DNA from: Humisphaera borealis
Lineage (GTDB): Bacteria; Planctomycetota; Phycisphaerae; Tepidisphaerales; Tepidisphaeraceae
NCBI RefSeq assembly: GCF_015169395.1
Contig: NZ_CP063458.1
Span: forward strand, 4,402,001-4,466,000
Length of the DNA: 64,000 nucleotides
Reading direction: 5' to 3'
A program made the translations under genes and the position numbers. Each line of letters begins with the position of its first letter. The first letter of the stretch is position 1. Shown in pieces: positions 37,039 through 53,202 of the stretch. The notes under the pieces were generated by a model. That model worked only from the letters and a program-made list of their open reading frames with translations. It had not been told where the DNA came from and ran no database searches.

Positions 37039-38691
37039 GTGACGACCTTCTCGCCCGACCTGCGCCCTCTCCCAGCCGTTGCTGCACCCGTGCAGACCCG
37101 TTCGGTCGGAGCCGTCGGTCTTGTTTTGATCGCAGGGTTGTTCGTTGCCTTGTGCCATGTCTGGCTCGTGTCAGCCGGCTATTGGGCCCACTGGCCCATG
37201 TACAGCGACCGCTATGACCGTCTGGCGACGGCTTTTGCCGCCGGGCAGACCCATCTGACCATTGCCCCCGACCCGGCGATGCTCGCATTGGCCAATCCCT
37301 ACGACCCGGTCGCCAACGAAGTCTATCGAAAGCAGCCCGGCGTCCATGACGCCTGCCTGTACAACGGAAAGCTCTACTACTACTGGGGACCGACGCCGGG
37401 CCTGATGCTTGTTCCCGCAAAGCTCCTGCTGGGCAATCGAGTCACGATCGCCGATCAGCATCTTTGCTTCACATTTGCGATGGGCCTCGTTGCCGTCACG
37501 GGGTTGATGCTGCTTCGTCTTCGGGTGGCGTTCTATTCGTCGTCGCCAGTCTGGCTCCCGGCGCTGGGTGTGTTGTTGACCGGACTCAGTACGCCCATCA
37601 CCTGCATCATGACCCGGGCAGCGGTTTACGAGGCAGCAATCCTCGGCGGCCAGTTCTTTCTGCTCGCGGGGATCTACCTCGCATGGCGCGCGATCTCAGG
37701 ATTCAGCGCCGGGGCAGATGTGGCGGCCGACAGCACCTTCGTCAATCGCCGTTCACACCGAGCACTGCTGCTCGCGGGCGTATGCCTGGCGAACGCGGTG
37801 GGCAGCCGCGTGAGTCTTGCGGTCACCGTAACGGCGATCGGATTGGTCATCGTCGGCGTGATCGTCTGGCGGTATCGACATCAGCCGAGGCAATGCCTTA
37901 AGGCGCTCGCATTTTTCGGTCTGCCGCTTGTCGTCTCGGCGGTGGGGCTGTGTGTCTACAACGCCGTCCGGTTTGATCACCCGCTGCAATTCGGACAGAA
38001 GTATCAGCTCGGCGGGGCGGACCTTTTGGCGTTGCCCGGATTGTTCGGCATCGACAACCTCTGGCCTAATCTCTGGAGCTACTTCGTCCGGCCGATCGCG
38101 GGGCTCGACCACTTTCCTTTTCTCATCGCCGTTCAGGGCTTCGAGCAGTTCCCTGCCTTCATTCGCATACCGCCGGGGTACGAAATCTACGAGCCGATCA
38201 GTGGCCTGCCTCGGGTGATGCCGGTCCTCGTGGTCATCCCGCTGGCGGCGATCCTAGGATCGCGCGCGCTGTCGATCGCGCGCACGCCGGCCCCAGGAAC
38301 TGCCACAAAAGCAGATGACGGCGGCCGCGCTCTTCGGACACCCGTCATCCTGCTTCTGCTGGCGGCCGTCCTCGGTTTCGCGCCGGTGCTGTTGATGATC
38401 GGGTCTTCGCAGCGGTACCTCGCCGACTTCACACCGCCCCTTGTCATCGTTGCGATCGTCGCGGTCTGGCATCTGACCGATGTTCGACGCGTCAGTGCCC
38501 GCTCGGCCCGCCGACTTCTCACGAGCTTTACCTGCCTTGCCGCTATCACTCTTGGCATTGGCGTGCTCATTTCGATCGACGGATATGGTGCCCACTTCCG
38601 GTTGAAGAACGCGCGGCTTTACGAATCACTCGGCGGTCAGATCGAACCCGAAAGCGAAAACACAACGGACATCACTCATGCAAAGCACTGA
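37039..38691 (+). CDS. Polytopic membrane protein, GT39/PMT-like glycosyltransferase candidate
   Basis: The 550-residue product has about 11 hydrophobic segments. The first lumenal loop holds the motif LYNGKLYYYWGPTPGLMLVP (near residue 110), seen in some polyprenyl-phosphate-sugar-dependent transferases. An early acidic/Arg pair lies in MYSDRYDRLATAF, where PMT-type enzymes carry their catalytic Asp. It probably moves a sugar from a lipid carrier to an acceptor outside the membrane. GTG 37039 was taken as start. Its stop overlaps the start of the next gene by 14 bases, so the two are coupled. The 237-base gap upstream shows no clear structure. Confidence 0.72.
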   Translation: MTTFSPDLRPLPAVAAPVQTRSVGAVGLVLIAGLFVALCHVWLVSAGYWAHWPMYSDRYDRLATAFAAGQTHLTIAPDPAMLALANPYDPVANEVYRKQPGVHDACLYNGKLYYYWGPTPGLMLVPAKLLLGNRVTIADQHLCFTFAMGLVAVTGLMLLRLRVAFYSSSPVWLPALGVLLTGLSTPITCIMTRAAVYEAAILGGQFFLLAGIYLAWRAISGFSAGADVAADSTFVNRRSHRALLLAGVCLANAVGSRVSLAVTVTAIGLVIVGVIVWRYRHQPRQCLKALAFFGLPLVVSAVGLCVYNAVRFDHPLQFGQKYQLGGADLLALPGLFGIDNLWPNLWSYFVRPIAGLDHFPFLIAVQGFEQFPAFIRIPPGYEIYEPISGLPRVMPVLVVIPLAAILGSRALSIARTPAPGTATKADDGGRALRTPVILLLLAAVLGFAPVLLMIGSSQRYLADFTPPLVIVAIVAVWHLTDVRRVSARSARRLLTSFTCLAAITLGIGVLISIDGYGAHFRLKNARLYESLGGQIEPESENTTDITHAKH

Positions 38692-40516
38692 AGAATCCAC
38701 CACCCTGATGACCGTCGGCGGCGAGATCGGCGAGACCGACCGACCCATGCAGACTTGCTGCCCCCTGTGCCGGTCGCGACGCCTGCACTACGCGTTCTCC
38801 ATTCCAGGCCCGAAGACTGCCGAAAACGCGGCGCAGGGCGACGGCCTCCGCGTGGTGCGATGCGACGAATGCCGCTTCATGCTGCTGAACCCGCAGCCGT
38901 CCGATGCCGAGCTCAGATCGATCTACTCCGCCGACTACTTCCTGTCGGACGAACAAGGTCACGCGGAGAGGATGAAGTCATCCACCGCGCGCGGTTATCT
39001 TGAGATGCTCTCCCGGTACCGCGGTTCAACCGGCGGAAGGCTTCTCGAAGTCGGCTGCGGCCAGGGTGAAGGCATGGTTGAAGCGGCCGCGGCAGGCTAC
39101 GAAATCGTCGGCGTTGAGATCTCCCAGTCATCGGCGGACGTCGCGCGAGACCGTCTAGCGATGGCATCGGGCCGGTCGGGAGCGACGGCATCGGGGACTG
39201 TGCACTGTTCGACACTTGAAGAGGTCGATCTTGCCGAGGCGTCATTTGACGTATGCATCCTCGCCGACGTTATCGAGCATGCCCGCGACCCGCTGGCGAT
39301 GCTTCGGCGGATTCGCACGCTTCTCAAGCCGGACGGCGTGCTGCTCATCGCCACCCCTTCGCTCGACTCCTGGTCGGCAAAGCTGATGAAGCGCAGCTGG
39401 ATGGAGTTTAAGCCCGAGCACCTGAGTTACTTCGATCGCAACACACTTCAGAACATGCTTTTCCTGGCCGGCTTCTCCGACACGATCGTTACGCCGGGCT
39501 ACAAGACGCTCAATCTGGATTACGTCGCGGGCCATTTCGAAAAGTTCCCCGTGCCGATGTTCAGCCGGCTCGTTAGAACGACATCGCGCCTCTTGCCCAG
39601 GCGGCTTCGCCGGCGTGATGTGCGTGTGGTGGCGAGCGGGATGGTCGCGATGACGCGCGTAAATCCTGCCGCGGGCGAACAGCCGATTCGGAAGCAGCAC
39701 ACGCTCTCGATCGTCATTCCCGCGTTCAACGAGAGCGCGACGGTCGGGCCGTTGCTGGACGCGGTGCTGAAGAAGCAGATTCCGAACCTGGCGATCGAGG
39801 TGATCGTGGTCGAGAGCAACTCGACCGACGGCACGCGGCAGATCGTCGAAGAGTACGCCGGGCATCCGCGTGTCACGGCAATCTTCGAGGACAAACCCCG
39901 CGGCAAGGGCCATGCCGTGCGCACCGGATTGAATGCCGCACAAGGCGATTTCGTGCTCATCCAGGATGCCGATCTTGAATACGACCTGGAAGACTACGAC
40001 GTGCTCCTGGAGCCGCTGATCACCGGCCGCGAGGCGATCGTGCTGGGCAGCCGTCATGGCGGCGACGCCTGGTGGAAGATGCGTCAGTTCGAGCGACAGC
40101 CGATCACCAGTGCGTTTCTTAATTTCGGGCACTGGGTTTTCACGACGCTCGTGAACGTTCTGTTCCGGCAGAAGCTGCGTGACCCGTTTACGATGTACAA
40201 GGTCTTCCGCCGTGATTGCCTTGCGGGGCTGGAGTTCTACTGCAACCGGTTCGACTTCGACTACGAGCTGCTGATCAAGCTCATTCGCAAGGGCTACAAG
40301 CCGATTGAGATTCCGGTGAACTACCGATCGCGAAGCTTCAAGGAAGGCAAGAAGGTGAGCACCTTCCGGGATCCGATCAACTGGCTCAGGGCACTTGCAT
40401 GGCTGCGGGTCACCCGGATCGATCCCCTGGGTGTCGTTGCGCGATCGGCCCGACCGACGATTGCGACGACGGCGAGCCTCGGCAGTGACGACGCGTCGCT
40501 CCGCAATGCGGCTTGA
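38678..40516 (+). CDS. Fusion of a SAM methyltransferase and a DPM-like family 2 glycosyltransferase
   Basis: The product has 612 residues. Residues 28-65 form a Cys4 zinc knuckle (CPLC...CDEC). Residues 100-245 are a class I methyltransferase (RLLEVGCGQGEGMVEAAAAG, DVCILADVIEHARDPLAML, LKPDGVLLIATPS). Residues 340-560 are a GT-A glycosyltransferase like dolichyl/polyprenyl-phosphate mannose synthases (TLSIVIPAFNESATVGPLL, VVESNSTDGTRQIV, KGHAVRTGLNAAQG, QDADLEYDLEDY). The C-terminal FKEGKKVSTFRD is typical of that group. Such GTs load a sugar onto undecaprenyl phosphate, which would supply the upstream membrane transferase. The methyltransferase may modify the same sugar or lipid. I see no frameshift; the fusion looks genuine. 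Confidence 0.88.
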   Translation: MQSTEESTTLMTVGGEIGETDRPMQTCCPLCRSRRLHYAFSIPGPKTAENAAQGDGLRVVRCDECRFMLLNPQPSDAELRSIYSADYFLSDEQGHAERMKSSTARGYLEMLSRYRGSTGGRLLEVGCGQGEGMVEAAAAGYEIVGVEISQSSADVARDRLAMASGRSGATASGTVHCSTLEEVDLAEASFDVCILADVIEHARDPLAMLRRIRTLLKPDGVLLIATPSLDSWSAKLMKRSWMEFKPEHLSYFDRNTLQNMLFLAGFSDTIVTPGYKTLNLDYVAGHFEKFPVPMFSRLVRTTSRLLPRRLRRRDVRVVASGMVAMTRVNPAAGEQPIRKQHTLSIVIPAFNESATVGPLLDAVLKKQIPNLAIEVIVVESNSTDGTRQIVEEYAGHPRVTAIFEDKPRGKGHAVRTGLNAAQGDFVLIQDADLEYDLEDYDVLLEPLITGREAIVLGSRHGGDAWWKMRQFERQPITSAFLNFGHWVFTTLVNVLFRQKLRDPFTMYKVFRRDCLAGLEFYCNRFDFDYELLIKLIRKGYKPIEIPVNYRSRSFKEGKKVSTFRDPINWLRALAWLRVTRIDPLGVVARSARPTIATTASLGSDDASLRNAA

Positions 40517-40630
40517 TGCGCTGTTGATGATGGTCGCGGCGGTGGCGCGGTGCGGTGAATGTTGCCTCGCCGGACGCAGCGGTCGACTCGCAATCGGCCG
40601 CGCCATCGAATAGTCTCCCTGGCAACCATC

Positions 40631-41587
40631 ATGGCACGTTACTTCATCACCGGCGGAGCCGGATTTATCGGCAGCAATCTTGCAGATCGGCTACTGGCCG
40701 ACGGTCACCAGGTGACGGTTTACGACAACCTCTCCACAGGACAGCGCGAGTTCATCGCCCCGGCGAGCAGGCAGAAGGGCTTTACCCTGATCGAAGGCGA
40801 TGTGCTCGACGAGAGCCGCCTGGGCTCGGCGGTCGCCGGGCACGACTTCGTCTTCCATCTGGCCGCCAACGCTGACGTTCGCTTCGGCACCGACCACCCC
40901 CGGCGCGACCTCGAGCAAAACACCATTGCAACTTACAACGTACTCGAGGCAATGCGCCTTGCCGGCATCAAGCGGATCGCCTTCAGCTCGACAGGCAGTA
41001 TCTACGGCGAAGCAGCGACGATCCCCACACCCGAGGATGCGCCCTTCCCGATCCAGACGTCGCTCTATGGTGCCAGCAAGCTCGCCGGCGAAGGCCTCAT
41101 CAGCGCGTATGTCAGCGGTTTCGGCTTTTCCGCGTACATCTTCCGGTTCGTCTCGATTCTTGGCGAACGATACAGCCACGGGCACGTGTTCGACTTCTTC
41201 CACGCTCTCGCGAAAGATCCGACCAGGCTCCGCGTGCTCGGCAATGGCAAGCAGCGGAAAAGCTATCTCTATGTAAAGGACTGCGTCGAAGCGATCCTGA
41301 CGGTCATTGAGAAGTCCGCCGAGCCCGTCGCGATCTACAATCTGGGCACCGATGAGTATTGCCAGGTGAACGACTCCATTGGCTGGATCTGCGGCAAGCT
41401 GGGCGTGAATCCCGAGCGGCAGTACACCGGCGGCGACCGGGGATGGATCGGCGACAACCCCTTCATCTTCCTTGATACGAAGAAAGTCCGCTCGCTCGGA
41501 TGGAAACCCAGGCTCACGATTCAGAAGGGCGTTGAAAAGACCGTGGAATACCTGACGGCCAACCCGTGGCTGTTCGAGAGGCGCTAG
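40631..41587 (+). CDS. NAD-dependent nucleotide-sugar epimerase/dehydratase
   Basis: The 318-residue extended SDR has the NAD motif TGGAGFIGSNLADRLL (residues 7-22), LAANADVRFG, a catalytic Ser in SSTGSIYGEA, and the YxxxK pair in SLYGASKLAGE. YSHGHVFDFFHAL and a C-terminal sugar-binding part follow (GNGKQRKSYLYVKDCVEAIL). It resembles UDP-glucose 4-epimerase relatives; the exact nucleotide sugar is unknown. ATG 40631 was chosen; the longer frame adds 24 basic residues outside the fold. It probably makes a sugar precursor for the neighbouring transferases. Confidence 0.88.
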   Translation: MARYFITGGAGFIGSNLADRLLADGHQVTVYDNLSTGQREFIAPASRQKGFTLIEGDVLDESRLGSAVAGHDFVFHLAANADVRFGTDHPRRDLEQNTIATYNVLEAMRLAGIKRIAFSSTGSIYGEAATIPTPEDAPFPIQTSLYGASKLAGEGLISAYVSGFGFSAYIFRFVSILGERYSHGHVFDFFHALAKDPTRLRVLGNGKQRKSYLYVKDCVEAILTVIEKSAEPVAIYNLGTDEYCQVNDSIGWICGKLGVNPERQYTGGDRGWIGDNPFIFLDTKKVRSLGWKPRLTIQKGVEKTVEYLTANPWLFERR

Positions 41588-41661
41588 CAGAGCGAACCGG
41601 CCCTGCTGTGCGGGCCACCGACCGAGTCCTCTCCCTCGTACCGGGAGATGGAGCGAAAGTC

Positions 41662-42525
41662 ATGCTCCCACTTCAATCCAAACTCGCATTGGTCACCGGT
41701 GCCTCGCGCGGTCTCGGCGAAGCGATCGCCCGCCAACTCTGGTCGGCCGGTGCGTCGCTCGCGCTGGTAGCCCGCGACAGCAAGGCTTTGGAAGAACTCG
41801 CCGCCAGCCTTCCGGAAGCACCTTCTGAAGGTCAGAGGCTTGGCGTGTTCCCCGCGGATATTGCCGACATCGCGTCTCTCGAAGCATCGTTTGCCGGCAT
41901 TTCCGCGCAGCTCGGCGACGTGGACGTACTGGTGAACAACGCGGCCATTCAGGGCCCGCTGGGGCCGTTGGAGTCCATCGATTTCGCCGCTTGGAAGCAG
42001 GTTTTTGACGTCGATCTATTCGCCGCGGTCCGGCTGTGCCAGCTTGTCATCCCGGGGATGCGGCGTCGGGGCGGCGGTAAGATCATCAACATCTCCGGCG
42101 GCGGTGCGACGGGCCCCCGGCCCGATGTGACCGCCTACGCGTGCGCCAAGACCGCATTGGTCCGCCTCGCCGAGACGCTGGCCGAAGAGCTGAAAGACGC
42201 CAGGATCGATGTCAATTCCGTGTCTCCCGGCGCCATGAATACCCGCATGCTTGAGGAGACCCTCGCGGCCGGGCCGGCCGGCATCAGGCGGGAGTTCCAG
42301 CAGGCGATGGAGCGAAAGCAGAAAGGGAGCGGCGTTCCTCCGGAGAAGGCCGCCGAACTGGTCGTTTTCCTGGCGTCGCCGGCGAGCGATGGCATCTCAG
42401 GCAAAATCATCAGTGCCGTCTGGGACCCCTGGCGTGCCCTCCCGGGTCATCTGCAAATGCTGGCCAATTCTGATGTCTTTACCCTTCGTCGGATCACGGA
42501 GAAGGACCGGCAAATCACCTTCTAG
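41662..42525 (+). CDS. Short-chain dehydrogenase/reductase
   Basis: The 287-residue product is a classical SDR with LALVTGASRGLGEAIA for the cofactor, VDVLVNNAAIQGPLGP, a catalytic Ser in NISGGGATGP, and Tyr/Lys in YACAKTALVRL. The tail (PPEKAAELVVFLASPASDGI then SGKIISAVWDPW) is characteristic of sugar/polyol SDRs. The substrate is unknown. It follows the epimerase after 74 bases on the same strand and is likely part of the glycan cluster. Confidence 0.88.
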   Translation: MLPLQSKLALVTGASRGLGEAIARQLWSAGASLALVARDSKALEELAASLPEAPSEGQRLGVFPADIADIASLEASFAGISAQLGDVDVLVNNAAIQGPLGPLESIDFAAWKQVFDVDLFAAVRLCQLVIPGMRRRGGGKIINISGGGATGPRPDVTAYACAKTALVRLAETLAEELKDARIDVNSVSPGAMNTRMLEETLAAGPAGIRREFQQAMERKQKGSGVPPEKAAELVVFLASPASDGISGKIISAVWDPWRALPGHLQMLANSDVFTLRRITEKDRQITF

Positions 42526-42636: not shown

Positions 42637-44115
42637 TTGGATTACAACCCCCGCCCGGTGGATACCTTTTGGAAAATTGTAGCGACACTCGCCCTGGTCG
42701 CGCTCAACGGCTATTTCGTCGCGGCCGAGTTCGCCGCGGTCAGCGCTCGAGCTTCGCGGTTCGAACAACTCGCCGAAAACAGCCTGGTGTATCGGATGTG
42801 TCTGGAGATCAAGCGCAAGCTCGATCTCTACCTGTCCACGTGCCAGATCGGGATCACGATCGCCAGCCTGGCACTCGGTGCGGTGATCGAACCGCTGGTC
42901 GCCGGGATCATTGACTCGCTGCTGGTCCGCATGGGGCTGGCTTCCGAGCCGCTGCCCGGACAGCACAGCGGACTGGCGATCGGGCTTGGCCTGGCGATCG
43001 GCACTGCTTTGCACGTGGTGATCGGCGAGCAGGCTCCCAAGAACTGGGCGATCCAGTTTGCCGACCGGGTGCTGCCGGTTCTCGCCCCGCCCCTGATCGT
43101 CTTCACGTGGGTGTTCTTCCCGATCATCTGGGTGCTGAACTGGGTCAGTAACGCCATCCTCCGCCTTTTCGGCGTCCACCTGAACAACGACGCCCATGGC
43201 GGGCTCCCTCATACCGAAGACGAGCTCAAGGCCCTTCTCGCCCAGGCTGTTGCCAGCGGCACCATCGCCAAGGGTAACGAACAGATCCTGACCAGTGCGT
43301 TCGATTTCGGCGACCTCAAGACGAGGCAGATCATGACGCCCCGGACACAGGTCGATTTTCTGTCGCTCGATCAGCCGGTCGGCAGGATTCTCAACACCGT
43401 GCAGAAGAGCGCTTATACGCGGTTCCCGCTGTGCGACGGCGACATCGACCACATCGTCGGCCTGGTCCATATGAAGGACCTTTTCACCCACCTGAAGCTG
43501 GTCCCCGGCCGGCTCCGATTCGCCGACGCCACCACCCCGGCCGGCGAGGCGATCGCGATCGCCGACGGATTGCCCGGGTCGAGCGTGCACGTGATTGGCG
43601 CCGGCGATATCGAACTGATGCAGATTAAGCGCGATGTGCTGTTCGTCCCCGAACTTCTGCCGGTGCCGAAACTGCTTCGGCAGTTTCAGACCAGCCATGT
43701 CCACATGGCGGTCGTCGTTGACGAGTATGGCGCAACGCAGGGCATTGTGACCCTGGAGGACGTTCTCGAAGAGATCGTCGGCGAGATCGAAGACGAGTTC
43801 GACGCCGCCAAGCACGCCGGCGATTTCGTGAAGGAAGGGGAGGGGTTCCGCGTCAGCGGTTCGTTTGCGCTGCACGAATTGCGCGAGAATCTCAAGCTCG
43901 ACAGCGACGAGTTGGAGGCTGACGACGTTGACACCGTCAGCGGGCTGGTGGTGCGGGAGCTAGGCCGCTGGCCGCGGGTCGGTGACAAGATCGTCATTGC
44001 GAACTACGTCTTCCGCGTGGTGAGCATGGTCCAGCGAACCCGTCGGGTCGGACAGGTGTTCATCACGCCGCAAACGCAGGATCAGATGCGGGCAGACGGA
44101 CCGGGTGCGGCGTGA
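42637..44115 (+). CDS. CNNM/CorC (HlyC) family membrane transporter
   Basis: The 492-residue product has an N-terminal DUF21/CNNM membrane domain with four segments (residues 8-190, LNGYFVAAEFAAVSARASRF, LHVVIGEQAPKNWAI). A CBS-pair region follows (IMTPRTQVDFLSLDQPVG, then VHMAVVVDEYGATQGIVTLE, EEIVGEIEDEFD). A CorC_HlyC domain closes it (FRVSGSFALHEL, DTVSGLVVRELGRWPRVGDK). The family is tied to magnesium/cobalt export. The start is uncertain: TTG 42637 or GTG 42658; neither has a clear ribosome site. It lies 112 bases after the SDR. Confidence 0.87.
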   Translation: MDYNPRPVDTFWKIVATLALVALNGYFVAAEFAAVSARASRFEQLAENSLVYRMCLEIKRKLDLYLSTCQIGITIASLALGAVIEPLVAGIIDSLLVRMGLASEPLPGQHSGLAIGLGLAIGTALHVVIGEQAPKNWAIQFADRVLPVLAPPLIVFTWVFFPIIWVLNWVSNAILRLFGVHLNNDAHGGLPHTEDELKALLAQAVASGTIAKGNEQILTSAFDFGDLKTRQIMTPRTQVDFLSLDQPVGRILNTVQKSAYTRFPLCDGDIDHIVGLVHMKDLFTHLKLVPGRLRFADATTPAGEAIAIADGLPGSSVHVIGAGDIELMQIKRDVLFVPELLPVPKLLRQFQTSHVHMAVVVDEYGATQGIVTLEDVLEEIVGEIEDEFDAAKHAGDFVKEGEGFRVSGSFALHELRENLKLDSDELEADDVDTVSGLVVRELGRWPRVGDKIVIANYVFRVVSMVQRTRRVGQVFITPQTQDQMRADGPGAA

Positions 44116-44202: not shown

Positions 44203-47200
44203 TTACGCGTTTCGCCGGCCCTGCATGGAGAACGGCTCGGCGGGTACCGCGGCGGGCACACCGGCGATTTGGGGCTCATCGAAGTGGTCGTAGGCGTAAT
44301 GTGAGACCGGCGGGATGTACACGCCCGGCGAGCGCGACGCCGCCAGCGCCATCAACACCAGGAACATGCCGGCCGCCGACGCGATGAACGAGTACCACGC
44401 TCGCTGGTCGTCGCCGGGTACGATCGACGCCGACTCCGGAACCACTTCGGCGATCGACACCGTAGCAAGTGGGTCGCCGGTCGCGTCGGCGATCTTCTGG
44501 TTCTCGACGTGCCGCTCTTCGCTCAGCGCGATGCGTTCGGCGTCGAGCTTCTCGATCGTAAGCCGGGCGGCCTCGGCCAGATCGGCCTCGGCTCGGGCCT
44601 GACTTGCCGAGAGGGAGGTCTGGGCCCACTCATTCTGGAGCTTGGCTTCGGACAGCCGGGCGTCGGTCAACGCTTTGCGCTTAAGCTCGATCGCGGCCAG
44701 CCGTTCGGGCTCGGCCATCGTGAGGCTGGGAGGCGGCTCGTCGCCAATTGCCGCGGCCCGCGCCTCGGCCAGTTCGCGTTTGCGGGCCTCAACCTTCGCC
44801 TGTTGGCTTGCCACCTGCTGCGTCAGTCCTCGGACGGCAGAGTCCGCCCGCGCATTGGTTTCGTCGAGCATCGCTTGGTATCGCGCCCGCGCGCTGGACA
44901 ATGCCTTATACGCCTCGTCGAGCGACTTGGCCCGTGCCTTCTGGTCGGCCGGGAGCTTGTCCATGTCGGGCTTGGCCGCGACGAACGCGTCGAACAACTC
45001 CTTCAGACGTTTCTCATTCCGCTGCCGCGACTGCTCGACCAGCTTCACGCTGTCGTCGATGAACGCGAGGAACTGCTTGGTAAGCGGGTCGTACTCGTCC
45101 TTTGCCGCGATCAGGCTGCGCAGTGCCTCAATCTGCTTGTCGAGATCGGTCATCTCGTCTCCAAGCTTCTTCGATTCGGGCAACTTCGCCGACGACGCGA
45201 CGTTGAACTGCCGCTCCACTACTGCACGGCGCGTCACCAGCGCCTTGAGCTGAGGATCGCTGTTCCAGGCACGCTGAATGCGGTTGGCGGTCTCCTGGGC
45301 CAGTCGGCTGCGGAGCTTTTCCAGCATCTCCCGCTGGTCCTTCTGCTGCTGGGCCAGTTCTTCGTTGTGACGGCGAAGCTCGAACTGGAGTGCCTGAAGC
45401 TTTTCAAGGTAGCCTGCCAGGATGACGTTCCCCGCGGCGGCATCGCGGGCTGCGGCGACCTGCGTGTCGAACTGCTGCTGGGCGGCGTCGAGCACCGACT
45501 TGGGGTCGCCGGCGTTGTTCGTGGAGGCTTCCATCGCCGCGTTCAGGCTTTCGTTGAGCGACTTGAGCTGATCGGTCAGCCGTTTGAGCTCCGTGTCGTT
45601 TTCGTCGGACGAGACGACCGCGTTTGCCGCGAGGCTGGGAAGGTTCTCCAGCATCGCGATTTCCTTTTCCAGGGCACGCGTCTTCTGCGGAAGCGATTCG
45701 AACTCGGCCTTGAGGGCGATCGCCTTCTTCCGGAGGCTATCGGCCTCGGCGCTGCGGGTGGGGCCCTGCGCGATCTGTCGCTCGGCTTCGGCTCGGCGAT
45801 CGGTGATGTTGCTGAGGGCGACGTCGATCTGGCCGATTCTCGTCCGGGCACGGCCAAGCACCGCTTCGTCGCCGGCCGAGGCCTTCGGTGATTCGTCGTA
45901 TCGACGCTTGGCCGCATGCAGGATCGCCAGCATACGGCTGCGGTCGGCCTCGCCGGTCGCCCCACGGTAGTCGATGACCAACTCGCCGCTGCGATCATCC
46001 CAGCGTGCGGCGCTGAGCGATTCAATCAGGCGGACGGCGTCGTCCTTCTTCGCTTCATCGAGCATGCCCAGCGACATTCCCTTGTCGTAGATCTGTCGGC
46101 GGGCGTCTTCCAGAACCTGGCGTTCGGTCAACGCTGCAATCTGCTGCTGATGAAACGCCCGGCGCACATCGGCCGTGATTCTCGGGCTATCGAGCCCCCG
46201 GTACTGCAGTCGTCCCTGGACGGTCGAACGCGGCCCCATCAGCAACCAGACGGCGACGATAGCGGCGACGGTCAGAACGACCGCGATCAGCACGAGCACG
46301 AGCCGCCGCTTGCTCGACTTGGGCGCGACGACGGCCGGCTGAGCCAGGTCGCCGGTGTTCGTGAAGGGGTCACGCGGGGCGGCGGCCGGTGTTGGCAGGG
46401 CGGCCGGGCGTCGGACGGCTTGGGACGGTAAACCCGTCGATCGTGGGTCGGCTGCAATCGCCGGTGTATTGGCCGAGCGACGGGCCGGCAGCGAAGGGCC
46501 TGCCGGGGTTGCCTCAGCCTTCGAAGCAGGCGCTGCGGGGACCACCGGTGGACGGAAACCGGGGGACACTGGCGTTGCGGCAGGCTTGGCCGCGATGACG
46601 CGACGCGGGCCGACGGGCTTGTCGAACTTGCGGGCAAGAGGTGCTGCCGTGCCGGGGCCGGTCGGCGTGCGGCCGACCGGGGGCTTCGCCGGTCGCGGGA
46701 CGGCCTTGGCGATTCCCGGCTTGCTCATCCCCGCGGGACGGATCAGCGGACGCGGTTTGGCGGCCATGCCCGGCTTCTTTCCAGGGGAAAGAGCCGCCGC
46801 TGCCGCACCCGCGGCAAGAACTCCACCAGCAGCCGTGGGTGCCAGTGCGTCTACGCCGGCAAGTCCAGTCGCGACGGCATCCGCGGCTTGCGTCGTGCCT
46901 TCTTCCGGCCGGCTTTCTTCGAAGCCGGGTTCGCCGGCGGTGGTCGATGCTGATGCTGTTGGGAACTGCTCCTCGGCGGCCGCCGGGCTGATGTCGTCAG
47001 CGACTGGCGAGACAAACTCAGGCTGCTCCAATGGCGTCACCGGCTCGGTGGCAACGGCTTCGACCGAAACCTCGACCGGGGCAGTCCCGGAGAGCTCTAA
47101 GCTGTCCGCAGGCAAGTCAAAAATGTCGACCGGCAACGTGGTCGCGACGGTCGTCGCCGAGCCGGCCTCGGCAATGTCCTGCGGCTCCTGGACTTCTTCC

Positions 47201-50200
47201 ACCTCAACCAGTTCGGGCAGGTCGAACCATTCCGACGACCCCGCGAAATCGCCCGCTGGGGCGACGAGGGATGTCGTTTCGCTGGGGCTCGATTCCAGCA
47301 AAGAATTGTCGGTCCTGACGTCGTCGTCGATCGTTTCGGCCTCGATGACGTCTCCGCCCAGTGGCTGCGCGGAGGAATCCGGCTCAATTGCGGCTTCAAA
47401 GCTGGCAGACTGCGACTCGGGGGGCTCTACGGGGGCAACGTTCCAGTCTTCCAGCATATCAACCGATGCCGCACCGTCAGTGGGCGTGACATGGGGCTCG
47501 GGAACCGCTGAGGGAGCCGTCTCCATTTCCTGTACCGCTGGCTTATCAGCCCAGATTGCTTCGGCGGAGGCAGGCTCTGCTGACGACAGTGCCGGGGATG
47601 TTGGCTTCGACCAGAAGAGGTCGGATGCAGCGGCTTCTTCCTGCGATGAAGCTTCGACTTCATGCTTCTCGCCCGGAATCGTCACAACGGGCGTGGGTTC
47701 GGCAAAGTCCCCGGCAATCGTCGACTCTCCGTCAGCCGTGGCGGGCGGGGGGAGGAAGCCGATCGATGTGCTTTCAACGTGCTCGGCGACAAAAGCCGGC
47801 TCGGGCGATTCCACCGCCGGTTCGTCGTGCATCAGTTCCGCTTCCGACACGTGCCAGTCGTCGTCGAGCGGAACTTCCGGTGCACCTTCCGCAGATCGAG
47901 CGTCAGCCGGGGGCGGATCGAACTCCCCGAACGACTGTTCCGCTGGCAGCGGTGCTGCGGCGGAGAAGCCATCCGCCGGCTGGGTGTCCGGCGTTACGCG
48001 ATTGGTTGCAAACACGTCGGACGCCGTGGCCTCCTCGAGTTCGACGCTTTCGAATATCGGAGGCTCGGATAACGGCGACTCGGAAATCGTCGTGGGCGAC
48101 GCGAATGAGTCTGAGATCAGTGGTTCCGACTCGTTCGATGGCGCTGGACCTTCGTCGCGGATCGCTTCGGTCGAGGGTGCTTCGGCCGGGAAATCGTCCG
48201 AATCCAGGTCCAGTGTTTCGTAGAGGTCTTCGGCGACAGGTTCCGGATTTGCCACGGCGAACAAGGCCGGCTCGCCAGCGGACGAGGGCAGTTCCGAGGC
48301 GTCGGTCGGCAGCGGCGGTGGCTCTTCCAGCGGCATCTCCATCACCGCCGGCACGCCCGCCGACAGCGGGTCATGGGCGTCGGTGAGGAGTAGATCCTGT
48401 TCCGGGAGAAATTCGTCTACGACGGTGACTTCTTCAAAAACCCCGGCCTCGGGCGGCGACACTGACGGTGTCTGATCTGCCGCGACTGCTTCAGCCGGCG
48501 AGGAGGCGTCTCCATCGAACAGGTCACCTGCTGTGTGCTCTGCGGTCGGCGTCCATTCGGGCAACGGTGAATCGACAGGATCAACGGAAGGGGTTTGGAG
48601 ATCGTCCAGCAGATCTTCAAAAGCGTCGTCCGCACCCACCGGCGAGATCGGAGTCTCGTGGAGATCGTGCTGCGGGAGCGTTGCTTCGCCGGCGACAGGA
48701 AGTTCCGGCGGGAACACCGGAGTTTGACTGCCTTCGTCGGCCGACAATTCGCTGTCGAAATGGGTAGCGGTTTCCGCTACGTCTACCGGAATCTCGCTGG
48801 CCGGAGGTTCAGCAGCAGTCTCAGTCGACTGCGACGCCATCATGTCGGGAGGCATTGTGGCGGCGGCGTTGGCGAGGGTTCCGCCGGCGGGTTGGGCCGG
48901 TTCGCCGGAAGCTGGGGGCGTCACCTGATGCGATTGGGTCAGCAAGGCCCCGCCGCCGAAGTCGTCGTCGTGTATTGGCACGAGATCGGATCGCAGTGGC
49001 GTGAACCGTGTCTCGTCGCGAGCACCAGGCGGCAGCGGTGCGCCGAACATGGGCATCGCTTCAGGTTCAACCATCGTTACTTCGGCCAACACGTCGGCGC
49101 GGGTGTCCATTGTGACCGGGCGGTCGCCGAACGGCAGGCGCGGTCGCGCTGGGCGCGGCGGCTCCTGGGGCTGAAGCGAACCCAGCGACAGCGGCATGCC
49201 GCCGAAGAAACTTCCCTGGTCTCGCCCGTGCAGCGAGAACGGATCGAACTCCGGCATGCCCACGGTCGGCGTCTCGAACGAACGCCCTGCGGCGTCGTCG
49301 GTCGGGTGCGTTGGCTCTGTAGTCGAAAGCTCCGCCGCCGGCGATTCCAACGCCGCCGGCTCACTCGGTGCAACGTCCAGTGGAGATTCAGCCAACGGCT
49401 CGACGAATGTTTCGTCCGTGACGCTTTCGGAAGCCACCGGCGGTGGTTCATCAACGGGCGTGTGGGCGTCGATCAACTCTTCGAAAAATCCATCGGGAAG
49501 CTGGTCCGTCAGAGCGGCTGCGCCGGCTGGCGCGATGTCGGTGCTGATCGCGGCCGAGGCGGTATCGAAACCTACCATCGGCGTCGTCGAGATCGACGAG
49601 AAGTCTGCGTCGCCCGGTCCTGACAAGTCCCCGGTAGGAACCTCGATGGAAGGATTGAAGCCTACGGCGTCGGTAGGCTCCCCGTGCGACGCCGATTCCT
49701 GGGTGGTTTCGGCCGCAGGCGTTTCGGCGGTTGTCGGTTCGTGGAAACCGGAAAAATCCATGGGCGCACCGGTCGAGATGCCCCACATCTGGTCGACCGG
49801 TCCGAAGCCGCTGAGGACCAGCTGTCCCCCGTGCCCGCCGACGCCCGACAACGTTATCTCGGCCACGCCAATCGTGGGCAGTGGACGCGGAGCCTCGTTT
49901 TCCGGCGCGGACGGGAGCTGCTCGTCGGGAGCGGCGACATTCTCGTTGTCGGCGGTCGCCGCGTCCGGCGATCCGGACGAGGGGAACTCGACCGGCATCG
50001 AGTGTCCGCCTGGCATCGAGGCAGTCGCATCAATATCAATATTGCCAGCGCCGGCCGCCGAGTCGTCGGCGGTCAGTTCGGTCGCGGGTTCGAATGCCAG
50101 TCCGTCGTCGAGAAGGGCATCATCGACGGGTGTGACTTCTTCAAGTGGCGTATTGCCTTCGAGAGTCGAAATGCCCTCGACGGGCGTCGGTTCATCGGTC

Positions 50201-53200
50201 GTGCCGGCATGGGATACGGCAACGGCGGGTGCCTGCGGCACCGGCGGCCAGCTCATGTCGCCGCGTCCCAAGTCCATTGACGAATCTTCGGCCGTCACCG
50301 GCGTGGCTTCCAGTTCGCGATCGAGCGAATCAACCATCGCCTCATCGACGTCAAACGCGGCGCGTACCGGCGTTGCTGGCGCCGCCTCCGGGGCGGGCGT
50401 GACGACAACTGTGGAGACCGGCGCGACTGCTAGTGGTGCAGCAGATGCCGTCTCTGGAGCGGGCTTTCGGCCGAACAGGCGGCTCCACAGAGATCGCTTG
50501 CCCGCCGTCTGGGGAGGTACTGCCGTCACAGCGGCTGCAGCAACTCCGGCGACGGTTACAGCGCCGACGACTGCCGGCGCCGCGACTGGAGCGAGTGAGG
50601 CGGCCGTTGCGGAGAGATTCGCTGGAGCTTGCGCGCTCGCCGTTACGGTCGAGAGCGAGTCGAGGTGCCCTGCGCCAGGCGTCGTGCCGGACGGTGGAGT
50701 CTCCTCTACGAAATCGAGCCCCGTGTCGAGATCGTCCTTCGCGGTCGTCGTCGGGCTGGCGATCGCCGGCGAGAACGAAGTCGGGAACTCGAACGACGGC
50801 ATGTTCGCCGCCGCGGCATCAAGTGCGGCGAAGTCGATCGCCGCATCAAGTTCCGGCTGGTCCGAGATGTCGGAACCGACGTCAGCCTCCTCCGGAGGCA
50901 AGGCAGGTGTCGAGGCGACGGCCCGTGCATCGCCGGGGAAGAGTTCAGTCTCGAGGGGTGCGTCGGGGTCAATGTCACCGGCGGCGATGACGCCCGGACC
51001 GATGGCAGGAAGCCCTTCTTCGGTCAGGCTTGGGTCGATGTCGCCGGCCTCTATCTCGGCCACGTCTAATTGTTCCGGATCGATGGTGGAAGACGCCGCA
51101 TCCAGATCCGGCCCCGACACTGTCGCCGCCGATACCGGTGCTTCCTCGATTGGGGGAATATCCCAGTCGATCGCGGCGGCGAAGTCATCGTCCGTTGCGC
51201 CGGCGGTCCCGTCAGCGGAAGGAGCCTCGGGCTCGGCCGCCATGTCGACCGCCGTGTCGACCGGCTGTTCGGGCGTCAGCTCAAGTGGTGACGCCGACTC
51301 GAACACCCCTCTCGACATTGGCGTGTCGTAGGTGGGCACAGCACTTTCGGCCACTACATCGTCGGTCGAGAGCTCGTCAGACTTAGGGGGCGAACTCTCT
51401 TCGAAATCGGTCCAGTGTGGAGCGTCTGCGGGTGCTTCCAGCGTCGGCTCGTGATCCAGGACATCCGCCGGACTGGCGACCTGCGGGTCGGCGGGAAAGG
51501 TGCCCGATGCGTCGGCAGGATCGACGGCCAGCGGCGTTGCTTCGGGCCCGCGGGCCCACTGGGCGGGCATCACGCCGATGACATGGGCCGACATCCCCAG
51601 GTCGTCCATCTCGGGGAACTCGACCATGTCGGCGGGCTGCGATTCGCCGGCGGCAGCAGACTGGTCAGCCGGTGCCTCGGGGAGCGGCTCCTCGATTGCT
51701 GTCGAACGGATGACGTCGTGCGACACCTCGTCGGCCTGAGTCAGCGTTTCCGCGGGCGGCGATGTCGCTCCGCCGATGTCGGCATCGATCTCGGTGTCGG
51801 CAATCGGTTCGGCCTCGGGCGCGGCAGTCTCTGCGGTGAGACCTTCGCCTTCAACTTCGGGCCACTCGGCGAGCGCTGCCACTTCGTCGGGCTCACCGGC
51901 ACCTTGCCGAAGTTCCGCGAAAAAGTCGTCGTCGATTGCCGGCTCTTCGACCGAGTCGGCGGAATGCATGGACTCGGCGGCAGCTTCAACCTCATCGGAC
52001 GGGAAGTCTTCGGTCGACGCGTCGACGACAGGAGACGCCGCCGAAAGGTCCTCCACCATCGGCGAAATCGTCGGGGGGGCCGCCGGCCGAGCCCCGGGAA
52101 CGGACAGGCCGACGGTATCGGCCGAGGTGACGCCGTTCATGTCGGGGTCGGCGTCAAGATCGATCGGCTCGGGCAACGCCACCGGCGCCACCGCGGCGAC
52201 CGTCGGTGCTGCACTGCGTGAGGGCTCGGGTGCCAGAGGAATGAGATCGTCTTCGTCGGCCAGGGGAACCAGATCGGCCTCGGCAAGCCCGCCATAGGCA
52301 GCACCTGCCAGGCCCAACCCCGCTCCTGCCACCGACATGGCATCGTGCGACGGATGACCGTTGCTGGTCGCTTCCCCGTCCTGCGCCGGCACGCCCGGCT
52401 CGGCGACTGTCTGACGCGAACCCTGGGGCTGTCCGGCGGAGGTAAAGCCGAGCAGCTCGTCATGCCCGAGGCGAGCCGTGCCGACGAGGTCTTCCAGTTC
52501 GGTGATGTCCTCGAATGTGCCAGTCCCGGATTCAGCCGGACGATAGATGAACTCGCGCGGCCCCACGCGCAGCCGGTCGTTGAGGTTCAGTGGCTGCTGA
52601 TGGGCGGCGACGCCGTTGACGAAAGTACCGGTGCGCGAGCCCAGATCGCGAACGTAGCGCAAGCCGTCGAGTTCGAAGATGATGGCGTGGATCGTGGAAA
52701 CGCGCTCGTCGTCAATATGCAGGTCGCAGCCGGCGCGACGACCGATGACGGTCGTGCGACCGTCCAGCGGCAGCACGCCGCCGCCGTTGTTCGCTTCGAC
52801 CAGTTGTCCCGGTGCCGGAGACGGAACCTCGGCCCCGGCCGAAGGGTGCTGCAACTTGAAGGTGAACGACCCGATCTGAAGCAGATCGCCGTCGGTCAGC
52901 TCCATCTCGTGGATGACCCGTCCGTTGACGTAAACGTGGGTTCGACTGCAAAGGTCACGGATGTAGACGCGGCCGTTGTCGTGGATGATCGCAGCGTGAC
53001 ACTTGCTGACGCTGCTGCTGACCAGGTGCAGATGAGCGCGGTTGCGGGCCCCGGCGAGCGTGAACGGGCGGTTCAGCGTCATCCCCGGCTTGCCGCGATG
53101 CTTGCCATGCGGCAAGAGGGTCGGGCCGTCAACGGCCGGAGGCGGAGTCGCGGCGGTTCGACTGGAACCTGCGGGGCGTTTTGAAGAACTTGACGATGCC

Positions 53201-53202
53201 AT
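44203..53202 (-). CDS. Giant FHA-domain protein with a polysaccharide co-polymerase-like coiled-coil end
   Basis: The product has 2999 residues. An FHA-like domain covers residues 45-117 (SSSVSKCHAAI, RDLCSRTHVYVNG). A canonical FHA domain follows at 145-221 (IGRRAGCDLHI, RVSTIHAII, RDLGSRTGTFVNG); such domains bind phosphothreonine. About 230-2140 is very acidic and Ala/Pro/Glu-rich, with almost no Lys or aromatic residues and probably disordered. Near 870-912 it contains one hydrophobic patch followed by a basic helix (SLWSRLFGRKP). A basic Pro-rich stretch precedes membrane segment 1 at about 2299-2322 (RLVLVLIAVVLTVAAIVAV). Residues 2325-2930 are long coiled coil. Membrane segment 2 lies at about 2935-2955 (FIASAAGMFLVLMALAAS). 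Two membrane segments bracketing a coiled coil resemble Wzz-type co-polymerases. The antisense strand has long open frames that are codon-bias shadows. Function unknown. Confidence 0.85.
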   Translation of the reverse strand: MASSSSSKRPAGSSRTAATPPPAVDGPTLLPHGKHRGKPGMTLNRPFTLAGARNRAHLHLVSSSVSKCHAAIIHDNGRVYIRDLCSRTHVYVNGRVIHEMELTDGDLLQIGSFTFKLQHPSAGAEVPSPAPGQLVEANNGGGVLPLDGRTTVIGRRAGCDLHIDDERVSTIHAIIFELDGLRYVRDLGSRTGTFVNGVAAHQQPLNLNDRLRVGPREFIYRPAESGTGTFEDITELEDLVGTARLGHDELLGFTSAGQPQGSRQTVAEPGVPAQDGEATSNGHPSHDAMSVAGAGLGLAGAAYGGLAEADLVPLADEDDLIPLAPEPSRSAAPTVAAVAPVALPEPIDLDADPDMNGVTSADTVGLSVPGARPAAPPTISPMVEDLSAASPVVDASTEDFPSDEVEAAAESMHSADSVEEPAIDDDFFAELRQGAGEPDEVAALAEWPEVEGEGLTAETAAPEAEPIADTEIDADIGGATSPPAETLTQADEVSHDVIRSTAIEEPLPEAPADQSAAAGESQPADMVEFPEMDDLGMSAHVIGVMPAQWARGPEATPLAVDPADASGTFPADPQVASPADVLDHEPTLEAPADAPHWTDFEESSPPKSDELSTDDVVAESAVPTYDTPMSRGVFESASPLELTPEQPVDTAVDMAAEPEAPSADGTAGATDDDFAAAIDWDIPPIEEAPVSAATVSGPDLDAASSTIDPEQLDVAEIEAGDIDPSLTEEGLPAIGPGVIAAGDIDPDAPLETELFPGDARAVASTPALPPEEADVGSDISDQPELDAAIDFAALDAAAANMPSFEFPTSFSPAIASPTTTAKDDLDTGLDFVEETPPSGTTPGAGHLDSLSTVTASAQAPANLSATAASLAPVAAPAVVGAVTVAGVAAAAVTAVPPQTAGKRSLWSRLFGRKPAPETASAAPLAVAPVSTVVVTPAPEAAPATPVRAAFDVDEAMVDSLDRELEATPVTAEDSSMDLGRGDMSWPPVPQAPAVAVSHAGTTDEPTPVEGISTLEGNTPLEEVTPVDDALLDDGLAFEPATELTADDSAAGAGNIDIDATASMPGGHSMPVEFPSSGSPDAATADNENVAAPDEQLPSAPENEAPRPLPTIGVAEITLSGVGGHGGQLVLSGFGPVDQMWGISTGAPMDFSGFHEPTTAETPAAETTQESASHGEPTDAVGFNPSIEVPTGDLSGPGDADFSSISTTPMVGFDTASAAISTDIAPAGAAALTDQLPDGFFEELIDAHTPVDEPPPVASESVTDETFVEPLAESPLDVAPSEPAALESPAAELSTTEPTHPTDDAAGRSFETPTVGMPEFDPFSLHGRDQGSFFGGMPLSLGSLQPQEPPRPARPRLPFGDRPVTMDTRADVLAEVTMVEPEAMPMFGAPLPPGARDETRFTPLRSDLVPIHDDDFGGGALLTQSHQVTPPASGEPAQPAGGTLANAAATMPPDMMASQSTETAAEPPASEIPVDVAETATHFDSELSADEGSQTPVFPPELPVAGEATLPQHDLHETPISPVGADDAFEDLLDDLQTPSVDPVDSPLPEWTPTAEHTAGDLFDGDASSPAEAVAADQTPSVSPPEAGVFEEVTVVDEFLPEQDLLLTDAHDPLSAGVPAVMEMPLEEPPPLPTDASELPSSAGEPALFAVANPEPVAEDLYETLDLDSDDFPAEAPSTEAIRDEGPAPSNESEPLISDSFASPTTISESPLSEPPIFESVELEEATASDVFATNRVTPDTQPADGFSAAAPLPAEQSFGEFDPPPADARSAEGAPEVPLDDDWHVSEAELMHDEPAVESPEPAFVAEHVESTSIGFLPPPATADGESTIAGDFAEPTPVVTIPGEKHEVEASSQEEAAASDLFWSKPTSPALSSAEPASAEAIWADKPAVQEMETAPSAVPEPHVTPTDGAASVDMLEDWNVAPVEPPESQSASFEAAIEPDSSAQPLGGDVIEAETIDDDVRTDNSLLESSPSETTSLVAPAGDFAGSSEWFDLPELVEVEEVQEPQDIAEAGSATTVATTLPVDIFDLPADSLELSGTAPVEVSVEAVATEPVTPLEQPEFVSPVADDISPAAAEEQFPTASASTTAGEPGFEESRPEEGTTQAADAVATGLAGVDALAPTAAGGVLAAGAAAAALSPGKKPGMAAKPRPLIRPAGMSKPGIAKAVPRPAKPPVGRTPTGPGTAAPLARKFDKPVGPRRVIAAKPAATPVSPGFRPPVVPAAPASKAEATPAGPSLPARRSANTPAIAADPRSTGLPSQAVRRPAALPTPAAAPRDPFTNTGDLAQPAVVAPKSSKRRLVLVLIAVVLTVAAIVAVWLLMGPRSTVQGRLQYRGLDSPRITADVRRAFHQQQIAALTERQVLEDARRQIYDKGMSLGMLDEAKKDDAVRLIESLSAARWDDRSGELVIDYRGATGEADRSRMLAILHAAKRRYDESPKASAGDEAVLGRARTRIGQIDVALSNITDRRAEAERQIAQGPTRSAEADSLRKKAIALKAEFESLPQKTRALEKEIAMLENLPSLAANAVVSSDENDTELKRLTDQLKSLNESLNAAMEASTNNAGDPKSVLDAAQQQFDTQVAAARDAAAGNVILAGYLEKLQALQFELRRHNEELAQQQKDQREMLEKLRSRLAQETANRIQRAWNSDPQLKALVTRRAVVERQFNVASSAKLPESKKLGDEMTDLDKQIEALRSLIAAKDEYDPLTKQFLAFIDDSVKLVEQSRQRNEKRLKELFDAFVAAKPDMDKLPADQKARAKSLDEAYKALSSARARYQAMLDETNARADSAVRGLTQQVASQQAKVEARKRELAEARAAAIGDEPPPSLTMAEPERLAAIELKRKALTDARLSEAKLQNEWAQTSLSASQARAEADLAEAARLTIEKLDAERIALSEERHVENQKIADATGDPLATVSIAEVVPESASIVPGDDQRAWYSFIASAAGMFLVLMALAASRSPGVYIPPVSHYAYDHFDEPQIAGVPAAVPAEPFSMQGRRNA

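Follow-up and report, generated by a model that had tools for sequence, protein, structure and literature searches.

Polysaccharide co-polymerases (PCPs) are known to be controlled by tyrosine kinases or pseudokinases, and planctomycetes are unusual in both their division and their wall synthesis. A giant gene of the soil planctomycete Humisphaera borealis, whose genome comprises 7.19 Mb in a single contig, raises the question how a protein that begins with FHA domains and ends in a PCP-like membrane part is built and what such a combination might serve. The gene lies in the stretch of 64,000 nucleotides analysed here, referred to as the window, in which it runs on the minus strand from 53202 to 44203 and yields a product of 2999 residues composed of two FHA domains, an acidic linker, a first transmembrane helix (TM1), an alpha/beta and coiled-coil part and a second transmembrane helix (TM2). 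A promoter/terminator scan at the 3' end of the gene found none. The parts are distributed over the window as follows:

44203..53202, minus strand: whole gene, ATG start, 2999 codons plus stop
52870..53052, minus strand: FHA1 core, residues 51-111, from Pfam; Ala, Ser or Asn at the canonical Arg position in the family
52561..52752, minus strand: FHA2 core, residues 151-214; GR and SxxH retained, Thr in place of the NG-motif Asn (SRTGT)
46333..52539, minus strand: acidic linker of low complexity, residues 222-2290, presumably disordered and in the cytoplasm
52468..52497, minus strand: linker motif LEDLVGTARL, residues 236-245, directly C-terminal of FHA2, in 7 of 15 homologues
49183..49224, minus strand: linker motif RDQGSFFGGMPLSL, residues 1327-1340, the best-conserved linker island
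46240..46314, minus strand: TM1, residues 2297-2321, preceded by KSSKRR; from hydropathy, AlphaFold and K/R counts
45892..46227, minus strand: putative PCP/Wzz-like alpha/beta base, residues 2326-2437, from predicted fold and profile comparison
44479..45879, minus strand: periplasmic helical coiled-coil region, residues 2442-2908, from the AlphaFold model
44338..44403, minus strand: TM2, residues 2934-2955; a short strand and a conserved D.R lie before it
44206..44337, minus strand: C-terminal tail, residues 2956-2999, short and without a kinase domain

The giant reading frame is genuine and not a chance ORF, since its domain order recurs in homologues. A search for proteins with this order, as proposed in the initial annotation, returned 13 complete long homologues (1536-2634 aa) that run from two FHA domains through an acidic linker to TM, coil and TM, and two further ones (1801 and 1494 aa) with the same order and a shorter periplasmic/PCP part, while four more that end at contig edges stand outside the count of complete ones. 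The 13 and the two all belong to one bacterial family, the window protein's own, and relatives named in GTDB are Tepidisphaeraceae, Humisphaera sp. and other Phycisphaerales. Their FHA domains are 39-51% identical to those of the window protein in the long homologues and 33-40% in the two with the shorter PCP part. A profile of the C-terminal part detected relatives in 22 of 26 genomes from this family, and in 12 of 13 when only good assemblies are counted. Two relatives, L060 and L062, have a short PCP-like part without FHA, and the L062 genome encodes a separate tandem-FHA protein of 544 aa elsewhere. Scanning the genome contigs for the FHA pair was done with a 7-row alignment, the 17-sequence alignment being too diverse, and gave ten tandem-FHA loci of the window family, all in Phycisphaerae, as well as nine weaker hits that are mostly other FHA proteins. 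Apart from the giant proteins, the H. borealis genome also encodes a soluble tandem-FHA protein of 533 aa that ends in an acidic tail and shows no clear TM (G000:C1:2355036-2355590, in L005), which is related to the window FHA pair (E=2.1e-41) and resembles proteins of 506-544 aa in other genomes of the family.

The two N-terminal FHA-type domains noticed at first are borne out by Pfam, whose FHA model PF00498 matches the protein in two stretches (E=1.7e-26) and thereby places it in the FHA sequence family. FHA2 keeps the Arg and Ser contacts and SxxH invariant in the seven closest sequences, with the altered NG motif listed above, whereas FHA1 is degenerate and lacks Arg in its canonical place; in the sister family described below, most FHA domains are without the Arg and Ser contacts. 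Because the contacts are incomplete, FHA2 of the window's family may be able to read phosphothreonine, whereas this is doubtful for FHA1 and for the FHA domains of the sister family. The closest solved sequences are those of GarA, OdhI and EmbR (E about 1e-13 to 3e-12), which carry a single FHA domain within other proteins, while the window protein has a tandem with altered contact residues.

The region between the FHA pair and the membrane is acidic as first described and, with 2069 residues (222-2290), slightly longer than the estimate of about 1900. D and E amount to 18.3% of it and K and R to 3.0%, which leaves a net charge of -317; in the 16 proteins measured, the window protein included, the linker spans 596-2069 residues and is acidic throughout. 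Two islands are conserved within it, SF.GG.PL.L in most homologues and LE(D/H)LVGTAPL just past FHA2 in seven. GarA and OdhI carry self-binding phosphosites, which the second island resembles by position and not by sequence, and this likeness is only a lead.

At the other end of the protein, membrane segments had been claimed at 2299-2322 and 2935-2955, and both the hydropathy maxima (2296-2328, 3.12; 2935-2958, 1.97) and the AlphaFold helices (2297-2321 and 2934-2955) agree with them. Two TM helices near the ends of the periplasmic domain are predicted in the window protein and in nearly all homologues, as expected of a PCP with cytoplasmic termini. Counted over 24 proteins, 112 K/R residues precede TM1 and 33 follow it, a strong positive-inside signal that places the N-terminal side in the cytoplasm; TM2 is neutral, and from these sequences both termini are probably cytoplasmic. 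The 612 residues between the helices had been described as a coiled coil of about 600 residues, which holds for most of them, but the first ~110 form an alpha/beta domain that had gone unnoticed, with strands at 2326-2335 and 2407-2414, a GFL-type motif at 2379-2381 and a D..R..A helix. Spacing from TM to TM is near-constant in the long forms, at about 600 residues, and the periplasmic part, whose length and fold are conserved, holds the best-conserved residues outside the FHA domains.

How far this part resembles PCPs was assessed by structure prediction, the comparison that had been recommended initially. AlphaFold2, supplied with residues 2285-2999 and 17 sequences, gave a model (mean pLDDT 78.6, pTM 0.35) in the order TM1, strand, helices, strands, helix, long coil, strand and TM2. 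When this model was searched against the PDB with Foldseek, generic coiled coils ranked above PCPs; KpsE (8tsw_H, prob 1.00, rmsd 5.5 over 140 columns) and WzzE were among its matches, and VIA re-alignment matched Wzc across both TMs. A natural short homologue of 407 aa, L059, was therefore modelled to remove the coiled-coil problem (pLDDT 85.2, pTM 0.63), and the first 17 of 350,542 PDB chains in its Foldseek ranking were all Wzc, KpsE or WzzE, headed by Wzc (E=6.9e-6, prob 1.00). As VIA re-alignment of both models gave PCPs a Z of about 10-11, which lies inside the coiled-coil background, it is the Foldseek ranking and not Z that bears the argument. The alpha/beta membrane-proximal base and the extended helical periplasmic part of PCPs are thus both present in the AlphaFold topology and in the structures matched by L059. 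The initial annotation had named three outcomes that would speak against it, namely a C-terminal fold unlike PCPs, hydrophobic segments that do not cross the membrane and homologues that lack the FHA part throughout, and none of these came true.

While the PCP-like end stands at the level of fold, the corresponding Pfam match is absent: Wzz (PF02706)/GNVR matched none of the 17 long-form C-terminal parts and none of the short or sister-family forms, although a GumC protein of the same genome, used as positive control, does match. Membership in the PCP sequence family is therefore not assigned, and a Pfam Wzz/GNVR label was dropped. When the C-terminal alignment was run as a profile against PDB sequences, mostly coiled coils were returned and no PCP. 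A first hhalign comparison with three GumC sequences gave a probability of 9.6% and was superseded by a decoy-controlled test with seven, in which only profiles lacking TM1 were used because TM composition could explain the higher scores obtained with it. The alpha/beta profile without TM1 scored 17.1 against the seven GumC-type PCPs, compared with at most 13.3 for 100 column-shuffled decoys and a lower value for the reversed profile too, and the sister-family profile without TM1 reached 28.6 against decoys of at most 19.9. A remote relationship to PCPs is likely, without being proven at the sequence level.

Among known systems, Wzc/GumC-type proteins (PCP-2a) provide the best structural matches and a weak in-register profile similarity to the window family, and they share the two TMs around an alpha/beta base and a helical periplasmic part. 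In contrast to them, the window protein has no tyrosine-kinase domain, Tyr tail or Pfam Wzz match and instead carries two N-terminal FHA domains on a 2069-residue acidic tether. It does not qualify as a PCP-2 (BY-kinase) protein, because its 44-residue tail is without a domain and no BY-kinase, C-terminal or partner, was recognised adjoining the window gene. KpsE (PCP-3) shares the base and TM region, with strong Foldseek matches, and to our knowledge has neither an FHA part nor a tether; Wzz/WzzE (PCP-1) shares the two TMs, a largely helical periplasmic domain and the absence of a kinase, is found among the structural matches and has, as far as we know, no large cytoplasmic extension. Wzc and Wzz have a common membrane-proximal motif that forms an octameric ring (PMC8285477), and this membrane-proximal part is also predicted in the window protein. 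In EpsV/EcpK and HfsA/HfsB, a PCP-2 depends on a partner proposed as a non-phosphorylating scaffold (PMC12004946); that partner is a BY pseudokinase, whereas for the window protein and its sister family it is an FHA pair, fused or encoded by the neighbouring gene. Mycobacterial FhaA carries an FHA domain on an unstructured linker of about 300 residues and is linked to cell-envelope synthesis (PMC11898655), but has a different globular domain and no PCP part. The parts of the window protein are hence of known kinds, and their combination of FHA and PCP is new: the initial annotation knew of no described protein with this order, and a literature search, with most subscription journals outside its reach, found no work joining FHA with a polysaccharide co-polymerase or Wzz.

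Whether the FHA pair and the PCP-like protein belong together functionally can be judged from another Phycisphaerae family, f3, in which a class search found giant proteins of 2065-2599 aa that consist of a coiled-coil spacer of more than 1,000 residues followed by TM, PCP-like domain, coil and TM. Two of them, L094 and L145, bear an N-terminal tandem-FHA fusion (E=1.6e-19 and 6.2e-28 with a profile of the window family only), and at ten other f3 loci a tandem FHA with a coiled coil is the product of the adjacent upstream gene, which has the same orientation, eight of these genes having been recognised by profile score and two read from sequence. Since the FHA pair is fused to the PCP protein in some genomes and adjacent in others, there is good evidence from gene arrangement that the two act together. 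A GT4 glycosyltransferase gene lies directly downstream on the same strand at 12 of 13 f3 loci, the 13th having ended too soon, and mraZ follows at each of the 11 loci whose sequence was read far enough. Two genomes continue with rsmH and then with ftsI, murE, murF, mraY and ftsW, these last five as read by eye. This series of tandem-FHA gene (fused in two genomes), PCP gene, GT4 and mraZ is known as gene order alone, and it points to glycan or cell-wall work of the FHA-PCP pair. A phylum-wide search with the f3 profile gave no match in 392 sampled genomes, a sample that held no positive control. In a further family, f4, a protein of 725 aa (L097:3546-5720) has a coiled coil in its cytoplasmic part and ends in a very short TM-alpha/beta-TM unit that lacks the periplasmic coil; it is perhaps a minimal relative.

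The surroundings of the window gene itself are less telling, and the f3 gene order ties FHA and PCP better to glycans or the cell wall than do the glycan genes of the window. Those genes (37039-42525) had been placed just upstream of the giant gene; they lie instead past its 3' end, converge on it from the opposite strand and are separated from it by a CNNM/CBS/CorC transporter gene (42637-44115) that adjoins the giant gene. The methyltransferase/GT2 and epimerase genes are real. As a group they do not recur next to homologues, and for this reason they were rejected as partners of the giant protein. The gene stands alone in its family, its neighbours varying among genomes except for the CNNM/CBS gene, which is kept nearby at 7 of 18 loci; no conserved glycan or GT4 neighbour was found at the homologue loci, and no KpsMT-like ABC transporter was recognised beside the window gene. 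Three ordinary GumC/BY-kinase PCPs are also present in H. borealis, so exopolysaccharide may be their task.

At about even confidence, we read the window protein as a PCP-type membrane protein that has a long-tethered FHA scaffold in the cytoplasm in place of a tyrosine kinase. It would be a two-helix inner-membrane protein whose periplasmic part adopts the PCP fold and, like PCPs, probably forms oligomers, and its cytoplasmic regulator would be the FHA pair on the very long acidic tether, replacing the usual tyrosine kinase. Together with the short linker motifs, the FHA pair might bring cytoplasmic partners to the PCP ring, be they glycosyltransferases, cell-wall enzymes or phosphoproteins, or alternatively control how the ring assembles, and the outcome would be a coupling of cell state to the export or polymerisation of envelope glycans. 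If this holds, FHA readers fused to or beside a PCP-fold protein would offer, family-wide, another way for conditions in the cytoplasm to act on surface glycans. They would also be a candidate for connecting the planctomycete cell-wall cluster with glycan assembly, and a natural test case for why a bacterium retains a tether that spans hundreds of residues and in the longest case about 2,000. A wider version, in which Phycisphaerae possess a new PCP class whose tandem-FHA scaffold, in place of a BY-kinase, and tether of hundreds to thousands of residues connect envelope-glycan assembly with Ser/Thr-type signalling and with the mraZ/dcw programme, is put forward only tentatively.

The gene order in f3 can also be read as that of a cell-wall or division scaffold that reuses the PCP fold without any role in polysaccharide chain length, its periplasmic coil recruiting peptidoglycan enzymes and its FHA tether gathering divisome or elongasome proteins. 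For this speak the arrival at mraZ in every locus read far enough with continuation into rsmH and ftsI-ftsW genes in two genomes, the precedent of FhaA (PMC11898655) and the near-universal presence of the gene in its family, which would fit a core envelope function; nevertheless, the f3 gene nearest to the PCP gene is the GT4 glycosyltransferase, and in the window's genome mraZ and rsmH are located at 6.02 Mb and the window at 4.40 Mb, with the dcw cluster 1.6 Mb distant, and we regard such a scaffold as unlikely. Quite improbable is a membrane-anchored spatial organiser, a polar or surface hub for which the PCP-like part would be just an anchor and the acidic tether the working part: the great length of the linker with its conserved short motifs, the f3 spacer and the lack of conserved neighbours other than the CNNM gene would suit it, but the periplasmic part is conserved beyond what an anchor alone requires. 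A secretion-system inner-membrane ring protein like YscD/PrgH, with FHA-like cytoplasmic domain, TM and periplasmic ring domains, is very improbable, because the match of both FHA domains to Pfam Yop-YscD_cpl (E=1.3e-20) comes from a model that overlaps FHA in general, the single TM and periplasmic ring-building domains of T3SS inner-ring proteins are not found in a protein with two TMs, the L059 fold search is headed by PCPs and no secretion genes were recognised nearby.

Apart from the giant gene, two other loci of the H. borealis genome came to light. At about 5.772-5.778 Mb of G000:C1 (L172:6183-12224), an FHA protein is encoded in a same-strand gene run that includes small ubiquitin-like and ThiF/E1-like proteins and lies ~0.3 kb from a GumC/BY-kinase gene; identified by eye, it is possibly a ubiquitin-like or type VII-like system. 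At about 0.69 Mb (L049:637-4731), a protein of 1365 aa, whose Wzz score is weak and probably due to chance, seems to combine a Hanks-type kinase, a TM and a long helical part with a C-terminal domain resembling the formylglycine enzyme.
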